NCBI GenBank assembly: GCA_016124585.1
Contig: WGNL01000007.1
Location: 186,001 to 250,000 of the forward strand
Direction of reading: 5' to 3'
Length of the DNA: 64,000 nucleotides
Source: Bacteroidota bacterium
GTDB taxonomy: Bacteria > Bacteroidota > Bacteroidia > Chitinophagales > Saprospiraceae
The notes under the pieces are model-generated. The model was not told the DNA's origin and ran no database searches. It saw only the letters and a program-made list of their open reading frames with translations. Each line of letters begins with the position of its first letter. Within the stretch, counting starts at the first letter, position 1. A program made the translations under genes and the position numbers. This document shows positions 15,055 to 54,482 of the stretch, piece by piece.

Positions 15055-15175
15055 GGTGAAGGGTAAACTGTGAATGTACGGGAGGGGAGCACCCAAAGTG
15101 AATATATGCTGCTTTTGGTGAATAGTACTTGTGTGTTGTTTTTACTTTTGCCCCATCCACAGTTCACCATTCACC
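15055..15175. repeat. Inverted repeat with heptamer units between surface protein and oxidoreductase genes
   Basis: ggtgaagggtaaactgtg (15055-15072) and cacagttcaccattcacc (15158-15175) are inverted copies, 16 of 18 pairing, about 85 nt apart. The right arm is built of 7-nt units (ttcacca, ttcacca, ttcattt). A TACTTTTG box (15143-15150) like a Bacteroidota -7 element lies between the arms, with no well-spaced -33 partner. Confidence 0.5.
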
Positions 15176-15189
15176 ATTCATTTACCACT

Positions 15190-18100
15190 GTGCAAGAAAA
15201 ACTCCGCCAACTACAACAGACCCTCGATGGCGAGCTTCATTTCGACGCCTTGCTGCGCACCTTGTACGCCACTGACGCCTCCGTTTACAAGGAACTACCG
15301 CTGGCCGTCGCCTACCCCCGTACCGTGGAGGATGTGAAAAAGCTCATCCACTTTGCCACCAAAAACAAGACCAGCCTCATTCCCCGCACGGCGGGCACCT
15401 CGCTCGGCGGACAGTGCGTCGGCACGGGCATCGTGGTGGATGTGTCGAAACATTGGAACCGAATCCTAGAAATCAATGTGGAAGAACGCTGGGTGCGGGT
15501 GCAGCCGGGCGTCATTCGAGACGAGTTGAATATTTTCCTCGCAAAATACGGTCTGTTCTTCGGCCCCGTAACGGCTACGGCCAGCCGGGCGATGATTGGT
15601 GGCATGGTTGGCAACAATTCTTGTGGCGCAACTAGCATCGTGCATGGCACGACTCGAGACCATGTTTTGGAAATTGAGGCCATCCTCAGCGATGGGTCGG
15701 AGGTGGTTTTTCAGCAAATTAGTGAAGCAGCGTTTTTTGAAAAAGCGAACTTGTCGATGCAAAAAAGCCCGATTCGGGAACTCCAAGACGGCGTTTCGGA
15801 ACAGGTCGGCAGCGGCGAGGAACTCCCAGACGGCGAGTCGGAGCTCCAAGACGGTGGCCAACTGCAGATGGGCGGCGGCGAGAAGCTGGTAGGCAGCCGC
15901 CAAGAGCTGTCAGGCGGCGCCAAGGAGCTCCCTGACGCCGTCCAAATGCTCGAAAGCAAAATCTACCGACAGCTTTACGAAGTATTGCAAAATCCTGATA
16001 ATCAGGCAGATATCCGCCGAGAATACCCAAAAGCCAGTATCCACCGCCGCAATACAGGTTACGCAGTTGACGTGCTGCTCGACCATAAACCCTTCAACTC
16101 CAATGGTCCCGATTTCAATCTCTGCAAGCTGCTGACGGGCAGTGAAGGCACGCTGGCTTTCACCAAAACGGTGAAACTGAACGTCGTGCCGCTTCCACCG
16201 CCCGTGCCCGCCGTGCTTTGTGCCCATTTTGCTTCGCTAAATGAATGCATGGAGGCTACGGTACTGGCTATGAGCCACCGCCCAGACCAGTGCGAGTTGG
16301 TGGATAAAATCACCCTGGACTGCACGAAAGACAATATCGAACAGGCAAAAAACCGCTTCTTTGTGCAGGGCGACCCGGCGGCAGTACTGATGGTGGAGTT
16401 CAGAAGAGAAAACATCGAAGATGCCACTTTTGCTGCCAAGCACCTCATCGAGGCATTCCAGATGGCGGGCATGGGCTATGCCTTCCCCATCGTGACGGGC
16501 AAGCAGACCAACCAGGTTTGGGCGCTCCGCAATGCGGGCCTCGGCGTCATGTCCAATATCCCCGGCGATGCCAAGCCGTATTCCTTCGTTGAAGATACTG
16601 CTGTGGCACTTGAAGACCTGCCCGCTTACATCCGTGACTTTGATGCACTGATGCATGGTTTTGGTCAAAACGCCGTCTATTACGCCCACGCTGGAGCAGG
16701 CGAACTACACGTTAAACCTACCTTAAACCTCAAGGATGCTGACGATGTACGGGATTTTCGTGCAATAGCAGAGGCTTCCGCCAAATTAGTGAAACGCTAC
16801 AGCGGCAGTCTCAGCGGGGAGCATGGCGACGGGCGTGTGCGGGCGGAGTTCATCTCTATGATGCTCGGCGAGGCGAATTACGAACTTTTGCGCAGCATCA
16901 AAAAAACATGGGATCCGCACGGCATCTTCAATCCTGGCAAAATCACCGATGCCCCGCCGATGGACGAGTCCCTGCGTTACGAAGTCGGCGCAAAACCACC
17001 GGAAGCCGATACCATCATGGACTTCAGCGATGCTGGCGGCTTCTTGCACATGGCCGAGAAATGCAACGGTTCTGGCGATTGCCGCCGCCTCGATTTTGCT
17101 GGCGGCACGATGTGCCCCAGCTATCGGGCGACTCGGGAAGAGAAAGACACGACGAGGGCACGGGCGAATGTGCTGCGGGAGTTTTTGAGCAGCACGGACG
17201 GCCCGTCCATGCTTCGAGGTGGGGTGGAGGGCACGGACTGGCAGTCCGTGTTACGGGTGCTCGACCTCTGCCTCTCCTGCAAGGGCTGCACCTCCGAATG
17301 CCCAAGCAATGTGGACATGACAACCATGAAATCTGAGTTCATGCACCGCTATTACCAGCAGCATGGTGTGCCTTTCCGGGCAAAGTTCTTCGGGCATATC
17401 GGCCGGATGAATGCGGTATTGTCAAAGGCACCCAGCTTGGCGAATTTTTTCATCAAAAACCGGGTGACTGGCAGCTTGGCAAAGCGCATTGTGGGTGTTG
17501 CTCCCCAACGAAGTTTGCCGCCGTTGGCGAAGGTTACGCTTCGCAATTGGTACAACCGCAACCGCCAATCGCTGACCCCAAATAGAGTAGTGAAGGGCAA
17601 GGTGTTTTTCTTTTGTGACGAGTTCACGGATTTTTACGATGCGGAAATCGGCATCAAGGCGCTGAAACTGCTCGCCCGCCTTGGTTACGAAGTGGAAATG
17701 CCAATTCATCCGCAGAGCGGGCGGGCGCAGTTGTCCAAAGGATTGCTTCCAGAAGCCCAATCGCTGGCAAAAGAGAACTTCCGCATTTTTTCGAAACTGA
17801 TAAACGAGGAAATACCGCTGGTCGGCATCGAGCCATCGGCCATCCTCAGCTTCCGGGATGAGTATCCCCGACTGGTGGACAAGCTGCACGTCCCCAAAGC
17901 CAAGGAATTGGGTAAAAACGCCCTGCTGATTGATGAGTTTTTGGGCCGTGAAATACAGGCCGGGCGCATCACCGCCGACCAGTTTATCCAAGAAAAAAAG
18001 AAAGTGCTGCTTCACGGCCATTGCCACCAAAAAGCGCTCAGCAGCGTGGACTATTCTGCTTGGGTCTGCGGCCTTCCAGCCAATTACGAGGTGGAGGTCA

Positions 18101-18369
18101 TCCCGTCTGGCTGCTGTGGTATGGCAGGGTCGTTTGGTTATGAAGCCGAACATTACGAAGTGAGCATGAAGGTGGGGGAATTGGTTCTTTTTCCTGCCAT
18201 TCGTAACACGGACGGCCCGTCCGTGACACAGCAGGATGGCGGAAGCACGGACGACCCGTCCGTGTTACTGGCAGCACCGGGCACGAGTTGCAGACACCAG
18301 ATTTTGGATGGCACGGGACGAAAGGCTTTGCATCCGGTGGAGGTGTTGTTTGGGGCTTTGGTAAACTAA
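15190..18369 (+). CDS. FAD-linked oxidoreductase with Fe-S and CCG domains (D-lactate/glycolate dehydrogenase-like)
   Basis: The gene gives 1059 residues from GTG at 15190. The first part is a PCMH-type FAD domain (VAYPRTVEDV, IPRTAGTSLGGQC, GGMVGNNSCG, LLTGSEGTLAF), followed by an FAD-oxidase C-terminal domain with YYAHAGAGELHVKP and SGEHGDGRVR. Two 4Fe-4S segments follow (CNGSGDC...MCPSY near 624 and CLSCKGCTSECP near 696). The end carries CCG/heterodisulfide-reductase-like motifs (HGHCHQKAL near 943, SGCCGMAGSFG near 974). It should oxidise a 2-hydroxy acid and pass electrons through Fe-S centres to the membrane chain. An upstream ATG at 15070 would add 40 unlike residues across an inverted repeat, so GTG is preferred. 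Three in-frame repeat insertions, at about residues 197-252, 668-688 and 1006-1026, lengthen it beyond the family norm. Confidence 0.88.
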   Translation: MQEKLRQLQQTLDGELHFDALLRTLYATDASVYKELPLAVAYPRTVEDVKKLIHFATKNKTSLIPRTAGTSLGGQCVGTGIVVDVSKHWNRILEINVEERWVRVQPGVIRDELNIFLAKYGLFFGPVTATASRAMIGGMVGNNSCGATSIVHGTTRDHVLEIEAILSDGSEVVFQQISEAAFFEKANLSMQKSPIRELQDGVSEQVGSGEELPDGESELQDGGQLQMGGGEKLVGSRQELSGGAKELPDAVQMLESKIYRQLYEVLQNPDNQADIRREYPKASIHRRNTGYAVDVLLDHKPFNSNGPDFNLCKLLTGSEGTLAFTKTVKLNVVPLPPPVPAVLCAHFASLNECMEATVLAMSHRPDQCELVDKITLDCTKDNIEQAKNRFFVQGDPAAVLMVEFRRENIEDATFAAKHLIEAFQMAGMGYAFPIVTGKQTNQVWALRNAGLGVMSNIPGDAKPYSFVEDTAVALEDLPAYIRDFDALMHGFGQNAVYYAHAGAGELHVKPTLNLKDADDVRDFRAIAEASAKLVKRYSGSLSGEHGDGRVRAEFISMMLGEANYELLRSIKKTWDPHGIFNPGKITDAPPMDESLRYEVGAKPPEADTIMDFSDAGGFLHMAEKCNGSGDCRRLDFAGGTMCPSYRATREEKDTTRARANVLREFLSSTDGPSMLRGGVEGTDWQSVLRVLDLCLSCKGCTSECPSNVDMTTMKSEFMHRYYQQHGVPFRAKFFGHIGRMNAVLSKAPSLANFFIKNRVTGSLAKRIVGVAPQRSLPPLAKVTLRNWYNRNRQSLTPNRVVKGKVFFFCDEFTDFYDAEIGIKALKLLARLGYEVEMPIHPQSGRAQLSKGLLPEAQSLAKENFRIFSKLINEEIPLVGIEPSAILSFRDEYPRLVDKLHVPKAKELGKNALLIDEFLGREIQAGRITADQFIQEKKKVLLHGHCHQKALSSVDYSAWVCGLPANYEVEVIPSGCCGMAGSFGYEAEHYEVSMKVGELVLFPAIRNTDGPSVTQQDGGSTDDPSVLLAAPGTSCRHQILDGTGRKALHPVEVLFGALVN
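15778..15945 (+). repeat. Eight tandem 21-bp repeats inside the oxidoreductase gene
   Basis: Units start at 15778, 15799, 15820, 15841, 15862, 15883, 15904 and 15925, exactly 21 bp apart and in frame. They encode degenerate heptapeptides: ELQDGVS, EQVGSGE, ELPDGES, ELQDGGQ, LQMGGGE, KLVGSRQ, ELSGGAK, ELPDAVQ. The DNA consensus begins GARCTCC and continues AGACGGCG. The block sits in a loop of the FAD domain between the ILSDGSEV strand and the ESKIYRQLYEV helix and looks like an expansion that the fold tolerates. Confidence 0.88.
17193..17254. repeat. 62-bp two-palindrome module in coding sequence, copy 1
   Basis: Two hairpins, cacggacggcccgtccatg (17193-17211) and cacggactggcagtccgtg (17232-17250), are separated by exactly 20 nt and followed by ttac. 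The module is in frame in the oxidoreductase gene just before the CLSCKGC cluster and encodes TDGPS, a spacer, then TDWQSVL. The same architecture recurs at 18207-18268. Confidence 0.85.
18207..18268. repeat. 62-bp two-palindrome module in coding sequence, copy 2
   Basis: cacggacggcccgtccgtg (18207-18225) and cacggacgacccgtccgtg (18246-18264) are separated by 20 nt and followed by ttac, exactly as in copy 1 (17193-17254). It encodes TDGPS, a spacer, then TDDPSVL, inserted shortly before the family's conserved AAPGTSCRHQI end. The spacer sequences of the two copies differ although the palindromes and spacing agree. Confidence 0.85.
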
Positions 18370-49892: not shown

Positions 49893-50240
49893 ATGAAAAG
49901 CAAACTAAAAAAATACGAAAAGTTATTGCTTGAACTGCTCAATGAGCATAAAACCGGATACCAAGAATATGTCTGGGGAAACTTGGAAGATATCCTGCTC
50001 GTGGACAAAGAACACGGCCATTTCCAACTACTCACCCAAGGCTGGCAGAAAGGCCGCCACATCAACGACATACTCATGCACTTCCATCTAAAACCCGATG
50101 GGAAAATCTGGGTGGAAACCAATAACACAGAAGTGCAAGTGGCCAAGGAACTGGAGAAGAAAGGAGTGCCTAAAACGGATATTGTATTAGGTTTTCATCC
50201 TGAATCGGTACGGCACTTGACGGATTATGCGGTGGGGTGA
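49893..50240 (+). CDS. xisI: XisI-family protein, without XisH
   Basis: The 115-residue protein matches the XisI family, named for fdxN element excision controlling factor in heterocyst-forming cyanobacteria: DILLVDKEHGHFQLLTQGW, HINDILMHFHLKPDGKIWVETNNTE (seen as ILMHFHLKPDGKIWVE), VAKELEKKGVPKTDIVLGF and the end RHLTDYAVG. In cyanobacteria xisI normally follows xisH; no XisH-like gene is present here. XisI is found widely outside excision elements, so the name does not prove a DNA-excision role. It is divergent from the haem protein gene by 112 bp. Confidence 0.82.
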   Translation: MKSKLKKYEKLLLELLNEHKTGYQEYVWGNLEDILLVDKEHGHFQLLTQGWQKGRHINDILMHFHLKPDGKIWVETNNTEVQVAKELEKKGVPKTDIVLGFHPESVRHLTDYAVG

Positions 50241-50379
50241 AGCGTCAATGCTGAAGAGGCTAAGCTTTTAACGGCTTTGTTGGAGAGGATGGGGGTGAGG
50301 TTTGCAGGTGGGGTAATTGATTGCACTTTCGTCATATTATTTAGGCAAGAGTTGAAAAAACAATTGAACTTTAAAAATA

Positions 50380-50943
50380 ATGGGGACATTTCATAAAGCA
50401 TTTGTGTCAGGAGAAAATATAGAGACCGTTAAATTGACTATCGGCAAATACTATAATATTATTAATGAAGAAATTGATGATTCAGAACAAGAATGGAGGT
50501 TTGGGGATAGAGGGAGCGACACTATAGTTCTGTCATCTGAATTCAACTATAATTGGGTTGCCATAACCTTTTACACAAGCACTTTTTATTTTCATGATGA
50601 GTTATTGAGGCGTATATCTAGAGATTTAGAAACTGAAATATTGTTAGGCTTTTACCAGTCTACATCTGGAGAAGGTAGGTTAGCAAGATTTGTTAATGGG
50701 AGTTTGGAGCTATCTATAAATCAAAGTTATGTCAAACTTAGAGATGAAGAAATGCACATATTAATGCATAATTGGGGAGTAACTGCTGAATTAAAAACTG
50801 AGTTTTCAATACCTGAATTTAAAGAGAGATTTGTTGAAATTGATAGGGATACAATTTACAAATTTTACAAAAAATTTGGATTGGAATGGGATGGATTAAA
50901 CAGAGATGTGGAAGAATACCATCATTTAGAGATAAAATATTGA
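50380..50943 (+). CDS. Hypothetical AT-rich 187-residue protein
   Basis: Not recognised. It starts MGTFHKAFVSGENIETVKL and is a soluble alpha/beta protein rich in aromatic and acidic residues (YNWVAITFYTSTFYFHDELL, FYKKFGLEWDGLNRDVEEYHH). There is no signal peptide or membrane segment. The DNA is much more AT-rich than the two haem-protein genes near it. The size and composition recall immunity-type or barrier-related orphan genes, but nothing specific can be claimed. The 139-bp gap before it holds no confident gene. Confidence 0.62.
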   Translation: MGTFHKAFVSGENIETVKLTIGKYYNIINEEIDDSEQEWRFGDRGSDTIVLSSEFNYNWVAITFYTSTFYFHDELLRRISRDLETEILLGFYQSTSGEGRLARFVNGSLELSINQSYVKLRDEEMHILMHNWGVTAELKTEFSIPEFKERFVEIDRDTIYKFYKKFGLEWDGLNRDVEEYHHLEIKY

Positions 50944-50955
50944 AGTCAAGTTTCT

Positions 50956-52881
50956 TCACAACCGCCCCAACCCCTCCCTAGCCCCCACACTCCCCGGATT
51001 CACCACCAGCGCATGTTCCAATAGGCGCTTCGCTTCCTTCTTTTCCCCTTGCAAAATCAATAAGGCCGCCTTGTTCACCAGTGCCTGCTCATAATCAGGG
51101 TCAAGGGCGAGGGCTTGGTCGTACAGCTTTTCGGCTTCGGGTAGATTGCCAGTCAGTACGTTGGCATAGCCGAGGTTTAGCAAGGCGATGGGTCGTTCGG
51201 GGTTCAGTTTGAGTATATTTTCGAATATCTTTTTGGCTTCCCCAATGCGCTTCATGGCTAGGAGTGCCACGCCTTTTTTCTCCAAAAAATCCAAGTGTAG
51301 CGGGTAGGCTTGCAATGCGGCTTCATAATAGGAAAGCGCTTTTTCGGGGTCGCCGGTTTTAAGATAGGCTTCGCCGATGCGGTAGTTCAACCAGCCGTTT
51401 GTTTGGTCATTAGTCATTGGCTTGGCGTCATTGGTCATTGATTTGGTGGCGGCAATGATACCTTGCCAATCTTCTTTTAGGAACAGCAAATGAATTTTGA
51501 CGGGGAGCAGTTTAGATGTTGCTGCCTGTGATTTTGAAAGGTAATATGCTGCGCTGTCCAGCATGACGGGCGACTGGATGTATTTGTCGTGGGTGGCGAG
51601 GTAGCCCCTTGCCATGTCGAGCGGTGAGGGGTTCTGTGTGGTCATGTTCTGGATGCCGAGGAACGCCTTTTTTTGCGAAGCAGCCACTTCTGATTTTGCC
51701 GAAGGAAGACCAATGCGATGGTCGGTGATGCGCACGTGTGGGATGTCTTTGCTGCCGGATTTGGGCATGTGGCATTTGGCGCAATTGTCTGAATTTGAGG
51801 CTCTTATCGCAGGAGATTCCGTGCAGGCGGTGGAAGCGTGGCATTTCAGACAAGCGTTGTTATACTGGCTGGCTGGGGTGACTTCCACACTGCGATGGGG
51901 CTGGTGACAGGTGATACAACTGAGGTCTTTGGAGTTTTTGAAGCACTCGCTCAAGCGCAGCCGATCGGCCTGTGAAGCCATGATAAAATGCTCGTCGGAG
52001 TCGGTGAAGCGGGGCAGATAGACGTTCAGCACCTCGCTCAGTTTCATGCCCGGCTTGAAATCGAAGAAGGATTTGCCCTCGTTCAGCACGGCGACGCCTT
52101 GCAGGTGGCAGCGTTGGCAGAGGTCCATCTGAAGGTCACGGGGCAGGCGGCGGGGGTTCACGATGGAGTAGTCAGCCTGCTGGGAGGTATCCACTTTGAT
52201 GCCCCTGACCTTTTCCTCCACGTGCAGTTTGCCGGGGCCGTGGCAGCGCTCACATTCGATGCCAGAAGGCATTTTCGAGAAGCGGTTCATGGAGCCGGGC
52301 ACCTGTTCGGGGTAGTTGTTGTGGCAGGTGATGCACTCCTCGGTGAGCCAGCGCCCGAAGCGGCTGTTGTTTTCCTTGAAACCGGGGGCCAAGTCCCAGC
52401 GGCCCTCTTGTGAATACCAAGTGACGGGGGCCTGATAGGCATAGCCATTGATGTCGAGGATATGCGAGTTGGTATGCTGCCCGCTGCCGACGATATAGCT
52501 GATTTTTTCGAGGCGGTGATGGATGGTATCGCCCTTGGCATCGAGGCGGTATTCGAGGACGTACATGCTGGAGTCCTTGAAAAAGGGGTGGTAGTAAAAA
52601 TTGCGGAGCGAATCAAAAACCACCGCATGTGGCCCATATTTGGCGGCGGTTTTTTGTAGTGTCGCATGGTCAAATGAGCGGCCCATTCCCGTGTGGATGA
52701 AGGTATCGTGGACGTTTTTATGGCAGGAAGCGCAGGTGGCCATGCCCACGTAGGCGACGCTGTCCCGAACGTTTCGGAAGGGAGAATCGGCAGTAGTAGT
52801 CCACGTTTTTTTACAAAAAGAAAAGAGCCAAGTAATCAGCAAGGCGAAGAAAAGAAGGGGTATTTTTTTTGTGGATAGCAT
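50956..52881 (-). CDS. Seven-haem c-type cytochrome with C-terminal TPR domain (lipoprotein)
   Basis: 641 residues. A lipoprotein-type signal ends in LFSFCKKTW. Seven CxxCH haem sites are visible: CASCHKN, CITCHNN, CERCHGP, CQRCHLQ, CITCHQP, CLKCHAS and CAKCHMP. Extra His near several (GSGQHTNSHILDINGY, FIHTGMGRSF) fits bis-His coordination of multihaem cytochrome c (cytochrome c554/NrfA-like fold in general). The last 200 residues are TPR repeats (NYRIGEAYLKTGDPEKALSYYEAAL, PIALLNLGYANVLTGNLPEAEKLYDQAL, VNKAALLILQGEKKEAKRLLE, quoted as short units). It should be a periplasmic-face electron carrier or reductase; no partner reductase is nearby. A 7-nt-phase repeat lies inside the coding sequence at 51402-51450. 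Confidence 0.87.
   Translation of the reverse strand: MLSTKKIPLLFFALLITWLFSFCKKTWTTTADSPFRNVRDSVAYVGMATCASCHKNVHDTFIHTGMGRSFDHATLQKTAAKYGPHAVVFDSLRNFYYHPFFKDSSMYVLEYRLDAKGDTIHHRLEKISYIVGSGQHTNSHILDINGYAYQAPVTWYSQEGRWDLAPGFKENNSRFGRWLTEECITCHNNYPEQVPGSMNRFSKMPSGIECERCHGPGKLHVEEKVRGIKVDTSQQADYSIVNPRRLPRDLQMDLCQRCHLQGVAVLNEGKSFFDFKPGMKLSEVLNVYLPRFTDSDEHFIMASQADRLRLSECFKNSKDLSCITCHQPHRSVEVTPASQYNNACLKCHASTACTESPAIRASNSDNCAKCHMPKSGSKDIPHVRITDHRIGLPSAKSEVAASQKKAFLGIQNMTTQNPSPLDMARGYLATHDKYIQSPVMLDSAAYYLSKSQAATSKLLPVKIHLLFLKEDWQGIIAATKSMTNDAKPMTNDQTNGWLNYRIGEAYLKTGDPEKALSYYEAALQAYPLHLDFLEKKGVALLAMKRIGEAKKIFENILKLNPERPIALLNLGYANVLTGNLPEAEKLYDQALALDPDYEQALVNKAALLILQGEKKEAKRLLEHALVVNPGSVGAREGLGRL
51402..51450 (-). 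repeat. 7-nt-phase repeat inside the cytochrome gene
   Basis: Units TTTGGTC, ATTAGTC, ATTGGCT, TGGCGTC, ATTGGTC, ATTGATT, TGGTGGC run in 7-nt steps (51402-51450). Since three units are 21 nt, the peptide on the minus strand repeats every 7 residues (MTNDAKP, MTNDQTN). The block lies in the linker between the haem domain and the TPR domain. Confidence 0.75.
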
Positions 52882-53062
52882 CGTGCAAAAATAATTGTTT
52901 ATTGTTCAAGGATATAGACATAATGGGCTTTATAAACTTTCAGAAACAAAGCTCGAAATCTGATTTTTTGAAAGGAGATCTAGCAACATGTTATTAGTGA
53001 GCTGCAACTGACAATTAAATCTTAGGTTTGCTTTCGCAATGTGCGGAACGAAAAAATAATTC

Positions 53063-53524
53063 ATGAAAATTAGCAAAATTGGATGCTTAATGCTGCTTGC
53101 CTTCATACAAACAGCTTGTCAACATGACTCATCGCCCAAAAACACAACTGTGGCAGCGCCCACTTCCGCTGCCGACAACACTAGCCCTGACGAGCATGGA
53201 TGTAGTCGCAAAGATGGTTTTCAATGGTCGGTTATCAGGAATGAGTGTATCTCAACTTTTGAAGTTGGTATCCACCTGCAACCTGTAGATTCGTTCATGG
53301 AAAAGCATTTGTTTGCTTTTGTGGTTTTCACATCTGAGGAAGATGATTCACAAGCGGAGTTGTTTATTCCAAAGCAAGAGAAATCCATTGTTCTGACAAA
53401 AATAGGGGAGGACAAGGGAAGCACATGGAAGCAGGACAATATGACACTGAAACTGTCGGATGGTAAATATAGCTTGATAGATGGGGAAACAGTGCTTTAT
53501 GCAGGTGAGGCTGCTAGCCATTGA
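53063..53524 (+). CDS. Hypothetical lipoprotein, 153 residues
   Basis: Begins MKISKIGCLMLLAFIQTACQHDSS, a lipoprotein signal with the acylated Cys near residue 19. The mature protein has a Ser/Ala/Thr-rich linker, then a small beta domain with ELFIPKQEKSIVLTKI, TWKQDNMTLKLSDGKYSLIDG. No family name is known to me. It lies between the cytochrome gene and the AraC regulator and shares no operon with either. Confidence 0.75.
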   Translation: MKISKIGCLMLLAFIQTACQHDSSPKNTTVAAPTSAADNTSPDEHGCSRKDGFQWSVIRNECISTFEVGIHLQPVDSFMEKHLFAFVVFTSEEDDSQAELFIPKQEKSIVLTKIGEDKGSTWKQDNMTLKLSDGKYSLIDGETVLYAGEAASH

Positions 53525-53555
53525 TAAGTAAAGCTAGCACTTGCAAGATTAACTA

Positions 53556-54482
53556 TCAGGCAACTCCCATCATTTTTTTCTTGTAGCTGCTTGGTGTCAC
53601 CCCTTCCACTTTCTTAAACACTTTTGTGAAATAGTTTAGGTTGTTGAAGCCTGCGCTAAATGAAGCGTCCGTTACGCTCTTGAATGGTTGGGCCAGCACC
53701 TGTTTTGCACGTTGGATGCGCTCCCGATTGATAAAGTCAGTTGGCGTTATGCCAAAATGGATTTTAAATTGACGAAAGAAATTGGGCTTGCTCATGTTGG
53801 CCTTTCGGCAAAGCTGGTCCAACGAAATATCTTCGTGTAAATGCCCCCGAACATATGTTATTGCAGCTGTCAATCGATGGTCTAGGTTGGGGTTTTCGCA
53901 GCCAGAAAGCAGCATGTTCCGTGCCTCAGTTTGTAATACCCTTACAATCAATTCCTTTAATGCAAGGTTGGTCAGCACGTTGCGGGCACGGCTGCCATCC
54001 GTAAAAAGCGTGACCATGCGGTGAACCGAGTCGTTGATAGCCAAGTCGTGCAGCAGGTAAAAATTGTTGCCTGGCATTTTCCAATCCCCCGTTTCAGGCA
54101 GGCGAGCGTATTTCTCATTGAGCAAGTTCAGGGTTTCTTTTACTACATCAGGAGAGAAAGCAAGGGCAAGGCATCGGGTCGGGTTGTTCACAGTCGCCTC
54201 CGGGAAGTCGATTCGCATGGTTTCACCTGGTGGTAACAGTAGAGATTCATGTGGCACGAAGGGCATCGGTAGTTGTCCGTTGAAGTGCATTACTTTCTTG
54301 CCGGAAATCATGCTCACAAACACCGGGTAATCAAAAGTTAGGTCAACTCGCTCTGCAATTTCAAAGGTTTCGTAAATGTTCAGTTCTGCTTCGTCAGTGG
54401 TATAGGCGGTGCGATTTTCTACGAGCGTTTCCACTTTGTTGTATTGATGGAGACTTTGGATATGGGTATTCGTGCGCTGCAT
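53556..54482 (-). CDS. AraC-family transcriptional regulator of the aldehyde dehydrogenase module
   Basis: 308 residues. The N-terminal half is a sensor domain (FDYPVFVSMISGKKVMHFNG, SLLLPPGETMRIDFPEA). The C-terminus has the AraC twin HTH: DISLDQLCRKANMSKPNFFRQFK and IQRAKQVLAQPFKSVTDASFSAGFNNLNYFTKVFKKVEG (visible as SKPNFFRQFK and FSAGFNNLNYFTKVFKK). It is divergent from the aldehyde dehydrogenase gene across 113 bp. The AraC / aldehyde dehydrogenase / DUF779 triad is conserved in several bacteria, so it very likely activates those genes in response to an aldehyde or alcohol. Confidence 0.9.
   Translation of the reverse strand: MQRTNTHIQSLHQYNKVETLVENRTAYTTDEAELNIYETFEIAERVDLTFDYPVFVSMISGKKVMHFNGQLPMPFVPHESLLLPPGETMRIDFPEATVNNPTRCLALAFSPDVVKETLNLLNEKYARLPETGDWKMPGNNFYLLHDLAINDSVHRMVTLFTDGSRARNVLTNLALKELIVRVLQTEARNMLLSGCENPNLDHRLTAAITYVRGHLHEDISLDQLCRKANMSKPNFFRQFKIHFGITPTDFINRERIQRAKQVLAQPFKSVTDASFSAGFNNLNYFTKVFKKVEGVTPSSYKKKMMGVA

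Follow-up and report, generated by a model that had tools for sequence, protein, structure and literature searches.

In-frame palindromic modules in a FAD-linked oxidase gene are probably REPINs of a dispersed, RAYT-associated repeat family in an uncultured Bacteroidota genus

How two closely similar palindromic modules came to lie in frame within a single gene for a conserved enzyme is the question raised by this stretch of DNA, a 64,000-nucleotide part (the window) of contig C24 in the 6.63-Mb genome of a Bacteroidota bacterium (G000). Both modules, A and B (Table 1), sit in a gene that fuses a FAD-linked oxidase (Pfam domains FAD_binding_4 and FAD-oxidase_C) to a 4Fe-4S half. They are very probably REPINs, doublets of inverted repetitive extragenic palindromic (REP) sequences, of a dispersed family that was most likely multiplied by a REP-associated tyrosine transposase (RAYT) of the HUH single-strand type encoded on contig C35; the mobility and its mechanism are what we infer.

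Each module consists of two inverted 19-nt palindromes, 39 nt from start to start, and keeps the frame of the host gene. The module coordinates, 20-nt spacers and trailing TTAC given in the original prediction, made from the window alone, are exact, and the two inverted palindromes that it described as a shared plan are present in both modules; two of the four palindromes are imperfect, however (17193-17211, which contains GTCCATG, and 18246-18264 each pair at 8 of 9 positions, the other two at 9 of 9). The element is also longer than the 62 nt proposed: elsewhere it begins at a GTAAC tag, which is intact in B and degenerate in A. As single-stranded DNA, module B folds far better than shuffled sequence (z -6.53), as do two dispersed copies of the family (z -8.13 and -9.84). 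Neither ACGGAC-N5-GTCCGT nor a two-hairpin module of this plan appeared in 60 simulated 64-kb windows (Markov-1).

Table 1. Positions of the host gene, the two modules and the RAYT-like gene (window coordinates unless a contig is named)
Feature	Position	Strand	Description
FAD-linked oxidase + 4Fe-4S half fusion gene	15070..18369	+	1099 aa; hosts modules A and B; from open reading frame and Pfam
Module A (site A), REPIN	17193..17254	+	left REP 17194-17210; right REP 17233-17249; GTTAC 17250-17254; left tag degenerate
Module B (site B), REPIN	18203..18268	+	GTAAC 18203-18207; left REP 18208-18224; right REP 18247-18263; GTTAC 18264-18268
RAYT-like open reading frame	C35:60824-61462		intact; 213 aa; directly between two REPINs

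The search for further copies that had been proposed revealed the same two-palindrome plan throughout the genome. The exact pattern ACGGACNNNCNGTCCGT matches 30 times on the forward and 26 times on the reverse strand (0 and 0 in the reversed control), and when as many as 3 mismatches are allowed, 62 strand matches to the tagged 24-mer are found, against 0 in the reversed control; a looser 17-mer core is less clean, with 48 sites against 14. From the looser-core and tagged-24-mer sites, 23 loci resembling the family were taken, four unlike looser matches being omitted, and together with the window these yielded 29 clusters, or 28 once a weak match (L195:4285) had been dropped as chance. Twenty-one of the 28 clusters, modules A and B among them, are doublets of an inverted left and right REP, oriented by their likeness to a layout with GTAAC tags on the outer and GCTTT tails on the inner side; GTAAC/GTTAC flank the outer ends, and a few copies carry GTAGC in place of the usual GTAAC. 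The start-to-start distance ranges from 30 to 118 nt (n = 21) and lies at 58-66 nt in 14 of the 21. Inverted doublets with outer tags and an inner spacer conform to the REPIN plan, as described by Bertels and Rainey in 2011 for extragenic space: two inverted REPs and a spacer, with the potential to form a long hairpin (PMC3116915). Of the marks of that class, the inverted REP pair with its spacer, the single-strand hairpin, the dispersed multicopy family and a RAYT gene flanked by the same REPs were found here. Chance origin of the modules was ruled out by the reversed-pattern controls and the simulated windows.

A transposase of the REP-associated type, which the original prediction had suggested looking for, is encoded between two copies of the family on C35. 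Its protein matches NCBIfam REP_Tyr_transpos (NF047646) with E 4.2e-17 and contains NHVH and ESYDHLIRN, which we take to be the HUH and catalytic tyrosine motifs. RAYT homologues occur in 8 of the 14 genomes of the genus, and the gene is flanked by the GTAAC REP family in two of them, G000 (on C35) and G006 (on its contig C1, where the RAYT is 77% identical); these two stretches contain 5 and 14 REPs, respectively.

Most RAYT loci of the genus (L175-L187) are surrounded by their own, differing palindromes; at L179, L182 and L183 a palindrome falls within the stop-to-stop frame of the RAYT and may lie upstream of the true start. Two more Y1_Tnp/RAYT-like matches in G000 (C36:129912-130183 and C12:141423-142038) contain in-frame stops and are apparently decayed.

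The proposal that a REP-like element can sit in coding DNA was borne out beyond the host gene. Leaving aside overlaps located at the end of a frame or in a frame that lacks Pfam support, 5 of the 28 clusters lie in frame inside genes with domain support, four genes in all. Two of the five are modules A and B. GltD and a polyketide synthase each hold a REPIN, the latter in its ketosynthase (KS) domain, flanked by DPIEIAGLTEA and IGSVKTNIGH; in a fused isobutyryl-CoA mutase, a single REP separates the MeaB domain from the mutase domain. The REP is read in two frames, giving TDCQSV/TDWQSV and TRTASPC. The best solved homologues have 18-residue gaps at the GltD and KS regions and no gap at the mutase site. 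In GltD, six genomes with a close orthologue show a REPIN (G000 and G011), repeat-like sequence (G005 and G006), other sequence (G012) or a short loop (G007). In the mutase, 27 nt stand in place of 27 nt: G000 and G012 read TDWQSVLH, six relatives read TDLKS followed by FH at the same length, five others differ in residues at equal length, and G010 is 5 residues shorter. In G009 the mutase has SEWNSNFH, and some of the resemblance may therefore be older. The idea that REPINs are specially ready to be coding was not supported: 38 of the 126 frames of the 21 doublets are open, a mean of 1.81 per element against 1.54 in composition shuffles.

What the two loops look like without the element is seen in orthologues. 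The gene was matched in 77 of 80 genomes, many of them distant, and the best 29 loci (L041-L069) were aligned. Among L046-L069 the site A loop, from RARANxLR to LCLSCKGC, has 22-25 residues in 24 of 24 loci, and the site B loop, before GTSCRH, has 12 residues in 21 of the 22 loci measured and 17 in L065, L050 and L068 being unmeasurable. The modules had been said to add about 20 residues each; they do encode about 20, but insert-free orthologues are shorter by a net 6-7 residues at site A and by 14 at site B.

By gene, the nearest named relatives are five Saprospiraceae metagenome-assembled genomes and one "Bacteroidetes bacterium" record (L086-L091), matched by coordinates to G011, G005, G001, G006, G008 and G012. 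Outside the two sites, these six and G000 are 76-91% identical in pairwise comparison, and their loops differ in content. Site A carries a REPIN in G000, G005 and G011 and heptamer-type repeats in G001, G006, G008 and G012 (exact arrays of at least 3 units in G006 and G008, the others similar by reading). At site B, G000 and G001 have a REPIN, G005 and G011 a single REP, and G012 a loop of native length. G006 and G008 each have a hairpin there, a perfect one of 33 nt in the former and one of 21 nt in the latter, and the net gain (11 and 7 codons) equals the hairpin length exactly. The G006 hairpin is a member of a second repeat family: G006 has 20 sites of its core, seven other members of the genus have 1-2 each, and the remaining 32 of 40 genomes have none, with controls at 0. 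The core of the G008 hairpin recurs in G014, at 14 sites that include three pairs spaced 40 nt apart, and has single matches in G002, G011, G012 and G058 among the 40 genomes, where reversed controls give single matches in 3 genomes; a repeat family of G008's own is not supported, the core occurring once in that genome.

Other repeats were seen in the same settings. Hairpins of 33 nt, perfectly paired, recur around GGTGACTTSAAGTCACC (L246, L243 and L244 near 1501; L089:6010) as a second palindromic family, with stems that vary between copies yet stay paired where read; this core has 20 sites in G006 and 2 in G000. Protein loops also hold another type of repeat, heptamers with CCGCAAT, CCGCAGT and CCACAGT units, which occur in coding DNA of the G000 polyketide synthase and at site A of two relatives (L205:1637, L044:2786 and L089:4915).

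The variable length and content of both loops among close genomes would also suit a view that needs no mobile element, in which the loops are simply hypervariable and slippage or quasi-palindrome correction produced the palindromes on the spot. The mutase REP points the same way, standing at equal length where relatives have the already REP-like ACGGA-TTGAAGTCC. One 17-mer core with its tags and tails is nevertheless shared by 28 clusters, some within unrelated genes and some outside genes, and the tagged pattern has no match in the reversed control, which leaves a local origin extremely improbable.

Subtracting the net gain from the length of the element indicates that the modules occupy part of the loop rather than purely adding to it, an apparent replacement of target sequence. 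At site B, REPIN length minus net gain (22-14 in G000, 32-24 in G001 and 9-1 in G005 and G011) leaves 8 native codons missing in each genome, and this constant deficit fits one ancestral event. The same subtraction at site A leaves 15-16 codons missing in G000 and G005, and in GltD about 32 nt (about 11 codons) are missing in a comparison with G007 alone. The 33-nt and 21-nt hairpins of G006 and G008 at site B entail no codon loss. The codons missing beside REPINs may have been deleted with target DNA on insertion or trimmed from the flanks at a later time. No target-site duplication was seen by eye at site A, site B, GltD or the mutase, where the missing native codons leave the edges inexact.

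The age of the in-gene copies can be judged from their core, ACGGACGGNCCGTCCGT, which occurs 6 times in the 14 genomes of the genus (once each in G000 and G001, twice each in G005 and G011), every time inside the host gene by coordinates. Since this core is found only there, the in-gene copies appear to be inherited and not newly inserted. That the window copies came recently and independently from the genomic pool is disfavoured, as exact ACGGACGGNCCGTCCGT occurs elsewhere in none of the 14 genomes, imperfect variants falling outside the pattern. The alignment of orthologues that had been proposed thus gave a divided answer: the segments are missing outside a small clade, but close relatives have the same sites and the private core, so the copies are not recent. 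Because sites A and B have in common a variant found nowhere else, copying or conversion between the two sites is suggested.

These features also bear on a different explanation, that the palindromes within the gene are no longer copies of a mobile type and are kept as hairpins by selection or mutual exchange, through a role of the mRNA or DNA hairpin or of the peptide. The variant that A and B share includes a compensatory change from T-A to G-C that is absent elsewhere in the 14 genomes, and in 4 of 6 genome pairs the arms show a lower rate of difference at fourfold sites than the background of the gene (1/10, 1/11, 0/7 and 0/12; P 0.025, 0.022, 0.019 and 0.048). In the remaining two pairs, however, arms and background do not differ (1/5 each, P 0.49 and 0.48). 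Numbers are low, the genome pairs have a common history, and an insertion after the species split would give the same pattern. Moreover, G012 and the 24 loci L046-L069 do without the element, and each module of the window has one imperfect arm. On balance we consider such maintenance unlikely. A further reading, tentative and less likely than not, is that a few protein loops are shared landing pads for successive unrelated palindromic families: REPINs would overwrite the loop, taking out 15-16 codons at site A, 8 at site B, about 11 in GltD and 9 in the mutase, and the in-gene copies would then form a private, hairpin-keeping lineage that exchanges between sites of the gene and not with the genome.

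For multiplication of the modules as REPINs by the C35 RAYT, which we favour, the following course of events can be envisaged. The RAYT would have cut tagged hairpins from single-stranded DNA and joined them elsewhere. A REPIN would have entered site B in the common ancestor of G000, G001, G005 and G011, with the loss of about 8 native codons; its spacers would then have changed in length, and one lineage would have collapsed to a single REP. The copy at site A may represent a second event or be derived from site B. Only frame-keeping copies in flexible loops would have survived selection, the protein merely tolerating the inserts.

Several observations weigh against this interpretation. The C35 protein falls below the curated cut-offs of both NF047646 (62.4 against 80 bits) and Pfam Y1_Tnp PF01797 (21.7 against 23 bits), and the GTAAC REP family is present at only 2 of the 13 RAYT loci examined; 10 of the 11 others have at least one different palindrome (stem of at least 9), often repeated around the gene, and L185 has none. 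In G001, G005 and G011 a RAYT flanked by the GTAAC REP was not found, G005 being 80% and G011 85% complete; loose-pattern sites number 87, 43 and 52 in these genomes (22, 11 and 21 in the reversed control). The GT[AG]G/GTAG foot tetranucleotide of the GTAG REP superfamily is absent, the tag being GTAAC. The single-stranded fold of module A is weak (z -1.80, with 10 of 200 shuffles equally good). Finally, the gene tree groups G006 with G005 and G011, yet G006 has no element at either site, so that loss or recombination must be assumed.

Comparison with known systems places the modules closest to REPIN/RAYT pairs as described in PMC3116915, with which they have in common inverted REPs, a spacer, dispersal, many doublets and proximity to a RAYT gene; they are set apart by the GTAAC tag, the coding position of some copies and a low copy number (28 clusters were examined). 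A cut at tagged, single-stranded REPs by TnpAREP is described in PMC8266576. In-frame REPs in genes are already in print: PMC3733652 describes GTAG and CGTC REP monomers and dimers in frame within open reading frames, encoding 20-30 aa and sometimes present twice per frame, reports two dimers in one gene and proposes that loops tolerate them. Relative to that account, the present case differs in its tag, its Saprospiraceae-like hosts, the exchange of one unrelated hairpin for another at a single loop among close genomes, and the missing native codons. According to PMC6006769, the TnpAREP 2.6 group is mostly from Bacteroidetes and has atypical REPs without GT[AG]G, and in the 2.4 group REPs lie in frame inside the transposase gene itself; the Bacteroidetes host, the atypical REPs and their in-frame position recur here, with the difference that the inserts are in metabolic enzymes. 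In a search of openly licensed papers, neither turnover of unrelated hairpins at one loop nor a constant missing stretch turned up, PMC3733652 and PMC6006769 coming closest.

Rickettsia palindromic elements (RPEs), with which the modules had initially been compared, are palindromic, about 150 bp long and in frame in many unrelated genes, as reviewed in PMC10969869. The comparison was apt for in-frame presence in unrelated genes, although REPIN/RAYT is the closer match. That the element is itself of the RPE or the CGTC type, without a dedicated transposase, would agree with its adding peptides in frame in unrelated genes, as RPEs do (PMC10969869, PMC3733652). The CGTC end tag of the CGTC REP superfamily and of RPE-4 and RPE-6 is lacking, however, the end being GTAAC, and a REP doublet with a RAYT gene between copies sets the element apart from the RPEs of that review; we regard this assignment as very unlikely.

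These findings extend in-frame REP insertion to an uncultured Bacteroidota genus in which a RAYT gene lies between copies of the same family. The comparative series, seven close genomes and two loops, includes one loop that is either empty or filled by three different palindromes, and it makes testable both the delivery of REPs into coding DNA by a RAYT and the replacement of target sequence on insertion. Furthermore, it urges caution, as lineage-specific peptides in conserved enzymes, such as TDGPSV and TDWQSVL, can be derived from repeats rather than being functional motifs. If the landing-pad reading is true, REP transposition would regularly supply core enzymes with new loop sequence.

The host protein has as its best NCBIfam match the D-2-hydroxyglutarate dehydrogenase YdiJ (591.6 bits, below the cut-off of 1350), and its gene may start downstream of 15070, orthologues starting near residue 40. 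In an AlphaFold2 model based on 20 sequences (mean pLDDT, the predicted local distance difference test, 74.6; pTM, the predicted template modelling score, 0.67), residues 712-723 and 1052-1062, within the inserts, have pLDDT below 50 and are predicted coil, lying between helices 695-707 and 724-734 at site A and between helix 1040-1045 and strand 1065-1068 at site B. Values below 50 extend to the Fe-S motif region (about 666-694 and 733-746), and the model is therefore poor around site A. There is no solved-structure template for either site, the best listed matches for the window spanning the FAD half only. A third insert in the host gene (window 15763-15942, residues 232-291) consists of imperfect 21-nt repeats (lag-21 match 0.50), is missing from 29 of 29 aligned orthologues and is predicted to be disordered, with pLDDT below 50; a comparable period-21 stretch is intergenic on C35, close to a REPIN (L035). 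Elsewhere in the window, GC skew is clearly positive at 50001-54000 (0.176 and 0.127 in 2-kb steps) and slightly negative upstream.

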